Source of the DNA: Theocolax elegans
Taxonomy: Eukaryota; Arthropoda; Insecta; Hymenoptera; Cerocephalidae
DNA: 64,000 nucleotides
Assembly: GCA_026168455.1 (NCBI GenBank)
Contig: CM047431.1
Coordinates: 42,751,966 to 42,815,965 of the forward strand
Direction of reading: 5' to 3'
This document shows, piece by piece, positions 96 through 50,918 of the stretch. Below the pieces are notes generated by a model. The model was not told the DNA's origin, did no database searches, and saw only the letters and a list, made by a program, of their open reading frames with translations. Within the stretch, counting starts at the first letter, position 1, and each line of letters begins with the position of its first letter. A program made the position numbers and the translations under genes.

Positions 96-565
96 TTTTT
101 AATAATATATCACACTTTTTAAATTAATATTGAATTTTGTTGGTCTTGCTGAGCTAACGACTAACGACTCTAAGAACTCCAAGTTGCTCGCTCGAAAAGG
201 CACGACAATTCGCCGCGTATCAATCCCGAGGACAACATTATGAAGCCCCACTGATGAGTTCTGGCAGACGGTCCCAAGACGAAACACATAGACTTAAAAT
301 TTCTTTCTTTCTTATTAAAATATTTTCAATTTTATTACTTAGTATTTATTTGCTTCTTCTTTTGGTTTATGTCTGGCGGCTTGTGGCCTTCATAATGTTG
401 TCCTCGGGATTGATACGCGGCGAATTGTCGTGCCTTTTCGAGCGAGCAACTTGGAGTTCTTAGAGTCGTTAGTCGTTAGCTCAGCAAGACCAACAAAATT
501 CAATATTAATTTAAAAACTTTTGCCTGGGCGAGAAAAAATTATATTTTTAATAATATATCACACT
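96..565 (+). mobile_element. Foldback element with hammerhead-like apex
   Basis: Two inverted arms (about 117-250 and 374-525) are nearly perfect complements over roughly 120 bp and are much richer in GC than their surroundings. The same 21-base AT-rich sequence, ending in ATATCACACT, flanks the unit at 96-116 and 545-565 and looks like a long target-site duplication or terminal direct repeat. The apex (251-373) carries the hammerhead-ribozyme-like core listed separately. Short reading frames run through both arms, but I recognise no protein. This resembles a non-autonomous retroelement or a foldback transposon. The class is inferred; the arms and direct repeats are seen directly. Confidence 0.6.
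235..391 (+). ncRNA. Candidate hammerhead ribozyme
   Basis: The elements appear in hammerhead order. Stem I 5' strand ends in CCA (248-250), followed by CTGATGA (251-257). Stem II is 258-264 with 274-280 (six of seven pairs, one of them G-U). GAAA is at 281-284. Stem III is 287-294 with 364-371 (eight pairs including two G-U). The cleavage triplet GTC is at 371-373 and stem I 3' strand starts TGG (374-376). After an internal loop, stem I continues as the long foldback arms (from 245/388 outward). The one defect is two extra bases, CA at 285-286, between GAAA and stem III; removing one CA of the CACA gives the canonical junction. The stem III loop is about 70 nt. Activity is untested, and the extra CA may make this copy slow or dead. 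Confidence 0.5.
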
Positions 566-45405: not shown

Positions 45406-46910
45406 TTGGACGACCTTATGAAATAATAGATCAAGTCAAATAAATCTATATAATTATTTCGAAATAATTAATTTAGTGTTTATTTTATTATACATTTAGG
45501 TGCGATATGATAATAAATCTTTAATCTTTATATATCTGACAAATAAACAAATTTTAAACTAAATTTTATCAATTTACAGAGAAAAATGTTGGAAAAGAAG
45601 AATGTTCAATTATTTTTTTAATATGTCATTTATGCCTGACACTTTCTCAAAAATTCAGAACTAAAAAGATAAAACTCTTTTTCAAAAAGGGTAGCTTTAC
45701 TTCAAACTGAGTAATTCAACGTTTGACGTAAGCAAATTTTCGTTAAAAAATTTATATTTCTAGCTAATAACCATCAACAAAGATAAATATTTCACCTTTC
45801 GAATGTGAATTCAATTGAAACTGTTAGAGGCATTACTTTTTTCATTCGTGTATATACATATATATTCAATTCATTTGCCGATAGAAGTTTCCATGTAACT
45901 GCAAAAAAAACCCTTCGTTCAAGCATAAGTACACTTTATTAATTCAAAAAATCAGATTTATCTTTTTATTCTAGAGTAAGGTAAAAACTATTCTTGGACC
46001 AGCTCTGAATGCGAATCGCACGGTATTACTTTAAAATCAAGAGGAGGGAATCCTTTCACAGTAGTTCAATTAGCAATATACGCTCGAGCATTAAAATGCA
46101 TCAAAGAATTTTTAAATCAAGGTTGTTACATTCGTTATTAAAAAATTGGAAATATTTCAAGTGTTTTAATATGTTTTTAAAGAATTACCGTTATTTTTAC
46201 TATTTTTAATATTTTTCGTAAATTTAAAGAATAATATATATCTTTTGATTTATTAGCCCAAGCACTTTGAAATGTAATGTAAAAAATTAAGGTCATCGCG
46301 AAGCCTTGATAATACACCCATATACTTTGTATTTTAGATAATGCAAATGGTTTTGAGGGAAAATCTTTTGCATTCGATTTTGAATTTTTAAATCAATACT
46401 TGTATACACAATCCATAGAATATCGTTTACATTTATATTTAAAAAACAAATTGTATTTCCAAAAAAAACGGTGATCCATCAGGTTTTAAACTTTGTTTAG
46501 TAATGCCAATATTTAATTCAATCAAACTGTTAATTTCGTTGAACGTCTAACAATTAATTATTGCTATTCTTTAATTAATTTCAATATGTTAGAAAGATGT
46601 AGTGTTAAATTATAATGTGAATTACTATTAAATTATTCATTTAATTTAATTAATTATAAAAGAAGCTGTTACCGTTGTATGAAAAACAAATACGGATAAA
46701 AAGTAAATATTTCTTAACCTCGGTCTTTGCGGAAGTGAAATTTTATTATCTTTAATACGCAATTTAACGCTATGGAGAGAATTTTGTAATAAAAATCACC
46801 TTGCCGGTAAACTTGGGATACATTAACTTTTGAAGAAAAATTAATGTAAAAAATCATGCTAAGGAAATCGCTACAATTTTTAAAGTGCTAGTACGCTAAT
46901 ACAATAATGT
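45406..46910. other. AT-rich non-coding DNA
   Basis: No exon or identifiable repeat is supported. The 66-residue frame at 46009 is AT-rich chance coding. Confidence 0.5.
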
Positions 46911-47312
46911 TAAAAAACAAACTCTTTCCGTGTACTTTTGATTTTAATTAAGGAAAATACGACACTCTAAAGATCTCAAGATAAGTACATTTTAAACTCA
47001 GAAATAGTAAACATAAAACAAATTATAAAAAAAAATTCTGGAATATTATAGATTAAAAATTATACAGTATTTATATGTAACAATATTTTACACATTATTT
47101 TTCATAGATTTCTTTCATTTAAAGAAAAGTATTACTTAATTTGTACAGTACTGCAAACTAATGTATATAATATAATTGTACAAAATTACTGTTATAATCT
47201 ATTGATATTTAAATAAGAGTAAAATGTATACTTAGCAATAAAGTTCTAGTAAAGATGGCAATACGGTCTAGTAATGAAATTCAAATTGTCAAAATTCAAA
47301 AATTACTATATA
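46911..47312 (+). repeat. Duplicated segment A, copy 1
   Basis: This segment reappears almost unchanged at 49134-49532, and its last 110 bp again at 47863-47986. In each case it leads into the 210-bp MITE. Confidence 0.85.
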
Positions 47313-47522
47313 GGGTAGAATGGTACAATTCCGACCAGGGTATAATTCCGACCAGTCCAAATATCCTTGTTACTAACTGAAAGCTAAAGGCCATGCTTAC
47401 CAAACATGAGCGTCAATTTGGCGCATCAAAACACGAAAGTCATTTGTTTATTTGTGTTGCCGTTCTCGAGATATTTGGACTGGTCGGAATTATACCCTGG
47501 TCGGAATTGTACCATTCTACCC
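47313..47522. mobile_element. 210-bp MITE, intact copy
   Basis: Termini of about 54 bp are inverted (start GGGTAGAATGGTACAATTCC, with a GACCAGGGTATAATTCCGAC repeat inside). TA flanks both ends (47311-47312 and 47523-47524), typical of IS630/Tc1/mariner-type insertions. This copy shows the unoccupied form of the site that is split in the downstream copies. Confidence 0.85.
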
Positions 47523-47862
47523 TACAGTATAGTAACATTTGACCGTTATTGACCTCATAAGATGCCTAATAATTCCCTGATAAATCTTTATATGAACCTG
47601 ACAATTGACCGATTACAAACCACGTTAATGTCTACTTGGACACCTTACAAACGCTTCATTTAGTTTAGTAGGCATCTATTAATAGGTCCAGATATTTGCC
47701 AAAATTTCATTTCTACTCGGGTTTATTGTTTATTTTATAAAAATTACATATTATTTATAAAGAACTAGTGAATAATGCATTCAAGTTATAACCTGAATAT
47801 ATCTTATTGACGTATTAACATAAAATAGCTCAGTTGGTATGTAGAGCGAGAGGTTCCAGACT
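47523..47862 (+). repeat. Duplicated segment B, copy 1
   Basis: Matches 50575-50918 with few differences. Near its end (47827-47860) a tRNA-like TAGCTCAGTTGGT A-box string is followed by a truncated B-box-like GAGGTTCCAGACTC. This is a relic, not a tRNA. Confidence 0.8.
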
Positions 47863-48067
47863 CAATAATAATCTATTGATATTTAAATAAGAGTAAAATG
47901 TATACTTAGCAATAAAGTTCTAGTAAAGATGGCAATACGGTCTAGTAATGAAATTCAAATTGTCAAAATTCAAAAATTACTATATAGGGTAGAATGGTAC
48001 AATTCCGACCAGGGTATAATTCCGACCAATCCAAATATCCTTGTTACTAACTGAAAGCTAAAGGTCA
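47863..48067 (+). repeat. Segment A tail plus left half of the MITE, copy 2
   Basis: The tail of segment A runs into the MITE left half (47987-48067), which is interrupted by the inserted foldback beginning CCCGTGTAAAA at 48068. Confidence 0.8.
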
Positions 48068-49133
48068 CCCGTGTAAAAAAAAAGTATGGGAAACGTCTGG
48101 GAAAATTCTGGCTTATAAAGTCTAGGCAAAGTTTAGCTGGTGAGACTATCCCATACTTTTTGCCAGACTTAATATATTTTAAATCAACCAGACTTTCTCC
48201 CGCACATTTTGCCAGACTTTATAATTATTTTGAAAAGTCTGGGATAAATCAACCAGACTTTCTCCCGCACATTTTGCCAGACTTTATAATTATTTTGAAA
48301 AGTCTGGAAGAATTCAACCTTTCTCCCGCACATTTTGCCAGCCTTTATAATAATTTTTAAAAGTCTGGGATAATGCAACCAGACTTTCCCCAGACTTCCC
48401 CCTCGTCGAATCTTCGTCGCATTGCATCTTTCAACATAAAATTTATATTATTTCTAATTAATAAAAACAATAAATCCTCGACATGTTTTGAGCTATCGAA
48501 CTCTCATAACCACCAGATACTTATCTATCACATATAAAAAGTCAATAATGTTTTCGTGTATCTCGCGACAATAAACTGATGAAACGGTTAGGTTACAATT
48601 ATAAAAACACAATCATCAAATTGAAGTTGGTTTTCATATCGTTTTGTACCCTAACCATTTCATCAGTTTGTTGTCGCGAGATACACGAAAAACATTGGTG
48701 ACTTTTTCATATGTTAGATATGATAGATAAGTATCTGGTGGTTTTATGAGTTCGATAGCTCAAAAGATGTCGAGGATTTATGGTTTTTATTAATTAAAAA
48801 TAATATAAATTTTATGTTTGAAAGATGCAATGCGACGAAGATTCGACGAGGGGGAAGTCTGGGGAAAGTCTGGTTGCATTATCCCAGACTTTTAAAAATT
48901 ATTATAAAGGCTGGCAAAATGTGCGGGAGAAAGGTTGAATTCTTCCAGACTTTTCAAAATAATTATAAAGTCTAGTAAAATGTGTGGGAAAAAGTATGGC
49001 TTATTTATCCCAGACTTTTCAAAATAATTATAAAGTCTGGCAAAATGTGCGGGAGAAAGTCTGGCTGATTTAAAATATATTAAGTCTGGCAAAAAGTATG
49101 GGATAGTCTCACCAGCTAGACTATGCCAAGACT
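48068..49133. mobile_element. AGTCTGG-rich foldback element, copy 1, right end truncated
   Basis: Starts CCCGTGTAAAAAAAAAGT. The arms of about 500 bp fold around a centre near 48630. Each arm contains two to three near-tandem units of about 70 bp with CCAGACTTTCTCCCGCAC and TTTTGAAAAGTCTGG. Internal frames of 60-80 residues merely translate these units. The right arm stops at 49133 and joins segment A through a TTA microhomology. Confidence 0.8.
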
Positions 49134-49599
49134 TAAAAAACAAACTCTTTCCGTGTACTTTTGATTTTAATTAAGGAAAATACGACACTCTAAAGATCTC
49201 AAATAAGTACATTTTAAACTCAGAAATAGTAAACATAAAACAAATTATAAAAAAAATTCTGGAATATTATAGATTAAAAATTATACAGTATTTATATGTA
49301 ACAATATTTTACACATTATTTTTCATAGATTTCTTTCATTTAAAGAAAAGTATTACTTAATTTGTACAGTACTGCAACTAATGTATATAATATAATTGTA
49401 CAAAATTACTGTTATAATCTATTGATATTTAAATAAGAGTAAAATGTATACTTAGCAATAAAGTTCTAGTAAAGATGGCAATACGGTCTAGTAATGAAAT
49501 TCAAATTGTCAAAATTCAAAAATTACTATATAGGGTAGAATGGTACAATTCCGACCAGGGTATAATTCCGACAGTCCAAATATCCTTGTTACTAACTGA
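49134..49599 (+). repeat. Segment A copy 3 plus a MITE fragment
   Basis: Repeats 46911-47400. It has several one-base deletions relative to copy 1 (for example near 49201 and 49572) and stops abruptly inside the MITE at 49599. Confidence 0.8.
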
Positions 49600-50460
49600 T
49601 CTCCCGCACATTTTGCCAGCCTTTATAATAATTTTTAAAAGTCTGGGATAATGCAACCAGACTTTCCCCAGACTTCCCCCTCGTCGAATCTTCGTCGCAT
49701 TGCATCTTTCAACATAAAATTTATATTATTTCTAATTAATAAAAACAATAAATCCTCGACATGTTTTGAGCTATCGAACTCTCATAACCACCAGATACTT
49801 ATCTATCACATATAAAAAGTCAATAATGTTTTCGTGTATCTCGCGACAATAAACTGATGAAACGGTTAGGTTACAATTATAAAACACAATCATCAAATTG
49901 AAGTTGGTTTTCATATCGTTTTGTACCCTAACCATTTCATCAGTTTGTTGTCGCGAGATACACGAAAAACATTGGTGACTTTTTCATATGTTAGATATGA
50001 TAGATAAGTATCTGGTGGTTTTATGAGTTCGATAGCTCAAAAGATGTCGAGGATTTATGGTTTTTATTAATTAAAAATAATATAAATTTTATGTTTGAAA
50101 GATGCAATGCGACGAAGATTCGACGAGGGGGAAGTCTGGGGAAAGTCTGGTTGCATTATCCCAGACTTTTAAAAATTATTATAAAGGCTGGCAAAATGTG
50201 CGGGAGAAAGGTTGAATTCTTCCAGACTTTTCAAAATAATTATAAAGTCTAGTAAAATGTGTGGGAAAAAGTATGGCTTATTTATCCCAGACTTTTCAAA
50301 ATAATTATAAAGTCTGGCAAAATGTGCGGGAGAAAGTCTGGCTGATTTAAAATATATTAAGTCTGGCAAAAAGTATGGGATAGTCTCACCAGCTAGACTA
50401 TGCCAAGACTTATAAGCCAGACTTTTCCAGACGTTCCCCAGACTTTTTTTTTTACACGGG
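49600..50460. mobile_element. AGTCTGG-rich foldback element, copy 2, left end truncated
   Basis: Begins internally at a point equal to about 48320 of copy 1, then proceeds through the same centre and right arm to a complete end, TTTTACACGGG at 50460. After it the interrupted MITE resumes with CATGCTTACC. Together with copy 1 it defines the full element (TIR CCCGTGTAAAA) inserted in the MITE, with CA on both sides. Confidence 0.8.
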
Positions 50461-50918
50461 CATGCTTACCAAACATGAGCGTCAATTTGGCGCATCAAAA
50501 CACGAAAGTCATTTGTTTTTTTGTGTTGCCGTTCTCGAGATATTTGGACTGGTCGGAATTGTACCATTCTACCCTACAGTATAGCAACATTTGACCGTTA
50601 TTGACCTCATAAGATGCCTAATAATTCCCTGATAAATCTTTATATGAACCTGACAATTGACCGATTACAAACCACGTTAATGTCTACTTGGACACCTTAC
50701 AAACGCTTCATTTAGTTTAGTAGGCATCTATTAATAGGTCCAGATATTTGCCAAAATTTCATTTCTACTCGGGTTTATTGTTTATTTTATAAAATTACAT
50801 ATTATTTATAAAGAACTAGTGAATAATGCATTCAAGTTTATAACCTGAATATATCTTATTGACGTATTAACAATAAAATAGCTCAGTTGGTATGTAGAGC
50901 GAGAGGTTCCAGACTCAA
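50461..50918 (+). repeat. MITE right part plus segment B, copy 2
   Basis: The MITE right part (50461-50574) lacks about 17 bp of the intact copy's inner repeat. Segment B (50575-50918) follows, including the tRNA-like relic string. Confidence 0.8.

Follow-up and report, generated by a model that had tools for sequence, protein, structure and literature searches.

Retrozyme-like repeat units with a type III hammerhead motif and a Penelope-type insertion footprint in the hymenopteran Theocolax elegans

The foldback at positions 96-565 of the window, that is, of the whole 64-kb stretch of Theocolax elegans DNA analyzed here, was judged with a probability of roughly 0.8 to be an insertion of a retrozyme-like retroelement, whose 511-nt units meet at a type III hammerhead motif and which displays a Penelope-type footprint. 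By sequence comparison with its relatives, the window hairpin is one insertion, namely a broken copy, of a 511-bp repeat family.

To describe the copies on a common scale, unit numbering (M) was based on a reference cut from one copy in locus L007; for the window locus itself (L001), subtracting 1411 from the locus position gives the window position. The window copy is flanked by direct repeats at 96-116 (TTTTTAATAATATATCACACT) and 545-565, which match exactly over 21 bp as originally described and were assessed with the mismatched-locus control given below. Since the first 12 bases of the 96-116 repeat coincide with unit 320-331, the true target-site duplication in the window may be 9-21 bp. 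The left arm (116-248, minus strand) corresponded to the unit from M292 down to M160 in inverted orientation (blastn against the 511-nt unit, 99.2% identity over M160-292), and the right arm (245-556, plus strand) mapped to unit 20-331 with 100% identity. The arms overlap by 4 nt (245-248), and the inverted stretches 116-245 and 388-517 are 100% complementary over 130 bp. The plus strand from the apex onward carries GCCCCA (245-250), the stem I 3' strand of the true hammerhead, whose partner TGGGGC was found to be absent from the window copy upon comparison with the unit junctions in L007, L013, L016, and L027. This is followed by the core CUGAUGA (251-257), recognized in the sequence and in the RF00008 alignment to the complete unit in L007, by stem II with its loop (GTTCTGG CAGACGGTC CCAAGAC, 258-280), supported by sequence, RF00008 alignment, and folding, and by GAAA with the stem III 5' strand (GAAACACATAGACT, 281-294), the partner of which in intact arrays is TTGTGTGTC, with which the preceding unit ends. 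Farther along the arm lie an internal look-alike of the cleavage strand (GGTTTATGTCTGG, 364-376, unit 139-151) and a one-sided "tail" (518-555, unit about 293-330) located between two end positions that recur across the family.

Because the right arm stops inside ribozyme loop I (unit 20), the window copy has kept the catalytic strand 245-294 and lost the GTC|T strand together with the 5' half of stem I, so that the position of the apex is simply the end point of a copied arm. With the cleavage strand and the stem I 5' strand missing, the window copy is, as far as its sequence tells, most likely not a ribozyme. In the Rfam searches, the whole 64-kb window gave no match at the curated cut-offs, and the interval 90-570 gave no hammerhead match even at E ≤ 10; the only hits listed for the interval were to a single miRNA model, found once on each strand with 37.6 and 28.8 bits where the cut-off is 200, and this model fits a long hairpin. 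A search of viral contigs with a 29-nt arm pattern yielded 0 matches, and a search of phage records with the window element yielded none. Elsewhere in the window, positions 46910-50794 are densely packed with direct and inverted repeats nested in one another, including 61/65-bp tandem units that occur in either orientation; this block may be a further composite mobile element.

Copies of the element elsewhere in the host genome, the search for which had been proposed with the original prediction, proved to be abundant: the window interval 90-570 matched its own genome (658 Mb) in at least 298 segments, the inverted arms of one copy being counted apart. Many of these copies are head-to-tail arrays with a 511-bp period, the units measuring 508-512 bp in the four loci read, and the longest arrays contain 12 full units in L031 and 13 in L040. 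The intact unit junction reads TTGTGTGTC|TGGGGC-AGGGACCGTCTGC-GCCCCA-CTGATGA-GTTCTGG-CAGACGGTC-CCAAGAC-GAAA-CACATAGAC, and this order is that of a type III hammerhead, in which stem III is open to the flanks and stems I and II are closed hairpins. RF00008 aligned over its full length (model 1-54) to L007:1985-2057 with 36.3 bits (E 7.9e-7 over 131 nt), and nothing in the nine loci scanned reached the curated cut-off of 48.5 bits. The motif thus possesses the core CUGAUGA...GAAA...GUH and the three stems with a score below the curated one. The unit has no long reading frame, and the natural array in L013 contains no frame longer than 92 aa. As a non-coding, multi-copy unit delimited by hammerheads in tandem, it conforms to the general description of a retrozyme. 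In the unplaced contigs L038-L041 and L050, the 511-bp arrays have flanks that are identical or almost so and differ in their number of units; they are likely haplotype copies of one array.

In the loci searched, 130 ribozyme matches were detected, 117 of them complete. The core CUGAUGA, GAAA, and U16.1 were intact in 113 of 116 complete copies (the 117 minus one duplicate locus), and unplaced contigs with shared flanks contributed 42 of the 116. Compensatory changes were also sought, and the copies turned out to be too alike, with 80 of the 117 complete ribozymes identical to the reference. Loop I was the most variable part, showing 18 distinct changes over 13 positions versus 2 over 9 in loop II, with 18 of the 21 loop I substitutions falling in the unplaced arrays with shared flanks. 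No loop II change in the variant list matched a loop I change, which argues against strict upkeep of loop-loop pairing. A nested fold model, which is unable to represent such pairing, favored pairing of the loop I strand with the loop II strand in a 12-bp hairpin and gave stems I and II a probability of 0. The 12-nt complementarity between loop I and loop II could form either a kissing helix of the active ribozyme or a core-hiding hairpin that would protect the circle.

To define the insertion footprint, 44 loci drawn from the best-scoring matches, several of which cover the same place, were mapped onto the unit. Duplicates (L011, L014, L016, L019, and L022-L030, as well as L044 for the ribozyme-core count) were dropped before the counts; L044 was merged with L043 for the foldback count, L046/L047 (three copies with the same flanks) were treated as one, and the second element of L037, which is cut by the locus, was excluded. 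What remained included 26 distinct foldback loci whose two outer ends could both be seen. For 22 of these (L001-L006, L008-L010, L012, L015, L017, L018, L020, L021, L031, L033, L035, L036, L042, L043, and L049), one side ended at M287-297 and the other at M327-332, the distance between the two positions being 33-43 nt (mean 37.7). These foldbacks therefore display two fixed ends and a one-sided tail of the 30-40-nt class, as in a Penelope-like footprint. The remaining four (L032, L034, L046/L047, and L048) have one end at M327-332 and the second end elsewhere.

Among the 22 foldbacks with typical ends, 20 lie between direct repeats of 12-21 bp, L031 and L043 having just 8 bp, and when left flanks were paired with the right flanks of other loci as a control, matches of at least 11 bp occurred in 4 of 462 pairings. 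At many loci several bases of the repeat are shared with the unit end (12 in the window), which makes the exact duplication lengths uncertain. At L032, L034, L046, and L048 no matching direct repeat of 9 bp or longer was found at the ends, and a looser scan of L047 gave chance-level matches of 7-9 bp. Not every copy is a foldback: L007, L013, L045, and the unplaced arrays L038-L041 and L050 contain units of a single orientation, as does the first element of L037, which has an 11-bp repeat. The dispersal of copies over different sites, each with its own direct repeats, indicated that the family has been mobile and that its mobility entails target-site duplication.

The apex positions vary widely among the foldbacks, the arms being of variable length, up to many units, and meeting head to head. 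When arm divergence was compared, with L038-L040, L044, L050, and L037 additionally dropped, the opposite arms of a locus were closer to each other than to other loci at 20 of the 26 loci compared. The pooled opposite-strand difference within loci (2.56%) exceeded the between-locus mean (2.23%) because a few loci, among them L005, L032, L046, and L049, have diverged. Units lying on one strand of the same locus differed by 1.44%. Three short foldbacks with differing flanks (L001, L002, and L006) have right arms that end at unit 20-26 inside ribozyme loop I, and arms in L003, L012, L031, L048, and L049 end at unit 2-24. Such arm ends near the ribozyme perhaps mark where the enzyme meets the ribozyme structure or a cut RNA end. 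In the predicted fold of M280-370, both start sites are unpaired and flank one small hairpin.

The same genome harbors Penelope-like elements of similar anatomy. A genome search found 98 GIY-YIG matches, not every one of which is Penelope-like, as L051 is a bacterial UvrC. This latter locus (C834:582742) encodes GIY-YIG and UvrC_RNaseH domains, the region downstream seems by eye to read TGA as a codon, and its contig within the insect assembly seems mollicute-like, perhaps Spiroplasma. In one Penelope-like family, the longest frames reach 799-854 aa in four loci, and RVT_1 and GIY-YIG were found in stop-free frames in both loci of this family that were scanned. In L063, L064, and L065 such frames occur on both strands and face outward, as foldbacks, and L063 (1251-6919) is a 5.7-kb palindrome with 99.8% identity. 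Long, near-perfect, outward-facing inverted Penelope-like pairs were seen in L063, L064, L065, and L067; these are apparently young insertions, and direct repeats of 13-15 bp flank all four. A one-sided tail of about 29 nt containing ATGAAGGGTGCTAATTCTCAT was present in all five copies with both ends seen (L055, L056, L063, L064, and L065). In L065 and L066 the tail motif is found internally as well, where it is in phase with the long reading frame, in agreement with published descriptions of the Penelope tail. In a second Penelope-like family (L067, L057, and L058), inspection by eye indicated that some ends bear an additional stretch of about 40 nt and others lack it.

A hammerhead-like motif, CTGATGA..GAAA, was noted near Penelope-like element ends by pattern match only, and Rfam reported no hammerhead at E ≤ 0.5 in 12 GIY-YIG loci. 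When the unit was compared with 17 GIY-YIG loci, no similarity was convincing, the best match having an E of 0.003 over 28 nt, and no coding sequence for reverse transcriptase and GIY-YIG lies inside the unit, such genes being found elsewhere in the genome. Among the best 120 of 490 relatives of the Penelope-like protein, the nearest named ones were from Leptopilina and Trichogramma, and ants were also among those named, which suggests a hymenopteran host. An insect host is likewise indicated by 133 genomic matches to the odorant-receptor family 7tm_6, which is not known from outside the insects; none of 14 control genomes, prokaryotes insofar as they were named, gave a match. When the longest flank frames of ten unit loci were inspected, eight matched other element families, one matched nothing, and one matched GIY-YIG. 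The last, L049:3-845 (minus strand), scored 21.9 bits, just under the cut-off, and lies about 1.4 kb from a 511-bp-family element; no unit match was found between the frame and that element.

In the Penelope-like protein of Anolis, reverse transcription starts at two adjacent internal sites, the 30-40-bp Penelope tail lies between these two start sites, and both target strands are cut and extended (Frangieh et al., PMC11167929). In Adineta, a typical Penelope copy has pLTRs in inverted orientation, a tail of 31 bp, and short duplications (PMC3846280). For the present unit, we propose that tandem copies would be transcribed and that the ribozyme would cut at GTC|T to release 511-nt monomers, which may be circularized. 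A Penelope-like protein, which we infer from the matching footprint to be the mobilizing enzyme, would use the unit RNA as template, and the arms would be cDNAs primed by both target strands. In their anatomy, most insertions are foldbacks in which each side starts at M~292 or M~330, about 38 nt apart, and runs inward in opposite orientation. In the window copy, the left arm spans M292 to M160, and the right arm extends from about M330 as far as M20, within loop I. The full scenario, in which an insect type III retrozyme is copied by a Penelope-like enzyme from a probably circular RNA and the priming of both target strands at two internal sites generates foldbacks, seems to us an even bet. Were it true, the footprint of the copy ends would answer which reverse transcriptase moves animal retrozymes.

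These findings were weighed against other readings of the element, of which the original prediction was the most specific: it held that the window apex is a working hammerhead, cut at the internal GTC 371-373, with the long foldback itself as stem I. Every piece named there does exist in the window. CTGATGA (251-257), GAAA (281-284), and GTC (371-373, unit 146-148) were recovered upon re-reading the sequence, stem II (258-264/274-280) is present with six of its seven pairs formed, and 287-294 is complementary to 364-371 over 8 pairs. CCA 248-250 likewise pairs with TGG 374-376, but this short stem is not continuous with the arms, as 246-247 first face 377-387. With the catalytic half fixed, dinucleotide shuffling produced an equally good partner (8-bp stem III and 3-bp stem I) just 3 times in 20,000 and one of looser form (5 bp and 3 bp) 14 times in 5,000, under a criterion chosen after the look-alike had been seen; such a partner is thus rare by chance, which counts against our main reading. 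On the other side, the true partner strand is known from the intact units and lies elsewhere in them, where stem I is a 6-bp hairpin and stem III is open, so that the foldback does not serve as stem I. The "extra CA" after GAAA, taken as a flaw, belongs in these units to a regular stem III (GAAACACA with TGTGTGTC). For 238-395, the fold originally proposed amounted to -10.3 kcal/mol versus -30.8 for the best one, about 20 worse, and its five key pairs that were checked had probabilities of about 0.02 or less. Reading the CA as a stem III bulge was tried as well and restored a canonical core, but at -6.7 versus -30.8 kcal/mol. In the predicted whole-unit fold, the look-alike 364-376 pairs with unit 244-257, and nothing observed speaks for its use as a cleavage site. 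The lack of a covariance hit, named with the original prediction as a refutation, applies to the window copy but not to the family (RF00008). A working ribozyme at the apex is accordingly very improbable. What endures of the original prediction is that the catalytic strand truly belongs to a hammerhead motif, incomplete at this apex, that the window copy belongs to a mobile foldback element, and that the hammerheads of Penelope-like elements and retrozymes are the right comparison.

The perfect 130-bp inverted arms and flanking direct repeats would also suit a transposase-mobilized DNA transposon of the foldback or MITE kind, the ribozyme half being accidental. That origin is scarcely credible given direct repeats whose length varies over 12-21 bp, two ends unlike in sequence with a tail on one, apex junctions that vary between copies, and multi-unit tandem arrays within the foldbacks. 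Twin priming yields inversions with target duplications, and movement by a LINE-type enzyme rather than a Penelope-like one would account for these. Neither the two recurrent internal start sites nor the one-sided tail is predicted by it, yet both are present in 22 of 26 foldback loci, and the same tail footprint is common to the Penelope-like elements of this genome; we hold a LINE-type origin to be improbable. Finally, the 511-bp unit might be satellite DNA, or the pseudo-LTR of an unseen Penelope-like element, rather than an independent non-autonomous element. The arrays of 12 and 13 full units, the anatomical match to Penelope pseudo-LTRs (PMC3846280), the GIY-YIG frame neighboring the L049 element, and the restriction of our mapping to the best-scoring matches all lend this idea some weight. 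It is opposed by the mobility evident from dispersed copies, by the lack of any frame above 92 aa in the natural L013 array, by the flank frames of the ten loci, by the lack of a unit match between the L049 frame and its neighboring element, and by ends that differ from those of the unit in both Penelope-like families looked at. We therefore regard it as unlikely, if deserving of some credence, and retain the retrozyme-like retroelement as the preferred interpretation.

Among known systems, the metazoan non-LTR retrozymes (Cervera and de la Pena 2020, PMC7229834) resemble the present family in their short, low-G+C tandem repeats with a canonical hammerhead per unit, in their dispersed and multimeric copies, and in the presence of Penelope-like elements alongside; the Discussion of that paper names these elements as a strong candidate mobilizer of animal retrozymes. 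They differ in being of type I with RNAs of about 170-400 nt, whereas the present unit carries a type III motif and measures 511 nt and hence falls outside the metazoan retrozyme class so defined, and the words "inverted" and "target site" are absent from the main text of that paper. Plant LTR retrozymes, as described in PMC7229834 and PMC11722881, share a type III hammerhead that delimits a unit of several hundred nucleotides, but the ends of the present unit are of the Penelope type. The type III motif is presented as mostly a plant form in PMC7229834 and PMC7761336.

The unit shares several traits with the Penelope-like elements of Anolis (PAc, PMC11167929) and Adineta (PMC3846280): the arms are inverted, only one side has a tail, which measures 30-40 bp, the targets are AT-rich and their duplications short, and the order is tandem or partial-tandem; the PAc repeat also bears a hammerhead. 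The unit departs from them in lacking a long reading frame and in carrying a full type III motif instead of their minimal type I. The atypical type III hammerheads of HDV-like RNAs, termites, and dipterans (PMC7936874) are similar in showing a type III order in an insect genome and Watson-Crick complementarity between the loop I and loop II regions, which extends over 11-12 nt in the present unit. The termite motifs, however, are isolated with no described mobile unit, whereas the present motif resides in a tandem, mobile 511-bp unit; in their own search of hymenopterans, those authors report finding none.

A type III motif joined to a retrozyme-like unit and a Penelope-type footprint was not encountered in the open-licence literature searched, outside which most subscription journals fall. 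The animal retrozymes known have type I hammerheads (PMC7229834), and the type III motifs known from insects are isolated or HDV-like (PMC7936874); the combination would be the new feature. It places the type III motif in a mobile unit of an insect, and it endows a retrozyme-like unit with the two-site, one-sided-tail footprint that has been tied biochemically to a Penelope-like reverse transcriptase (PMC11167929). Given this shared footprint and the co-resident Penelope-like elements with long open frames, the question of the mobilizer becomes directly testable in T. elegans.
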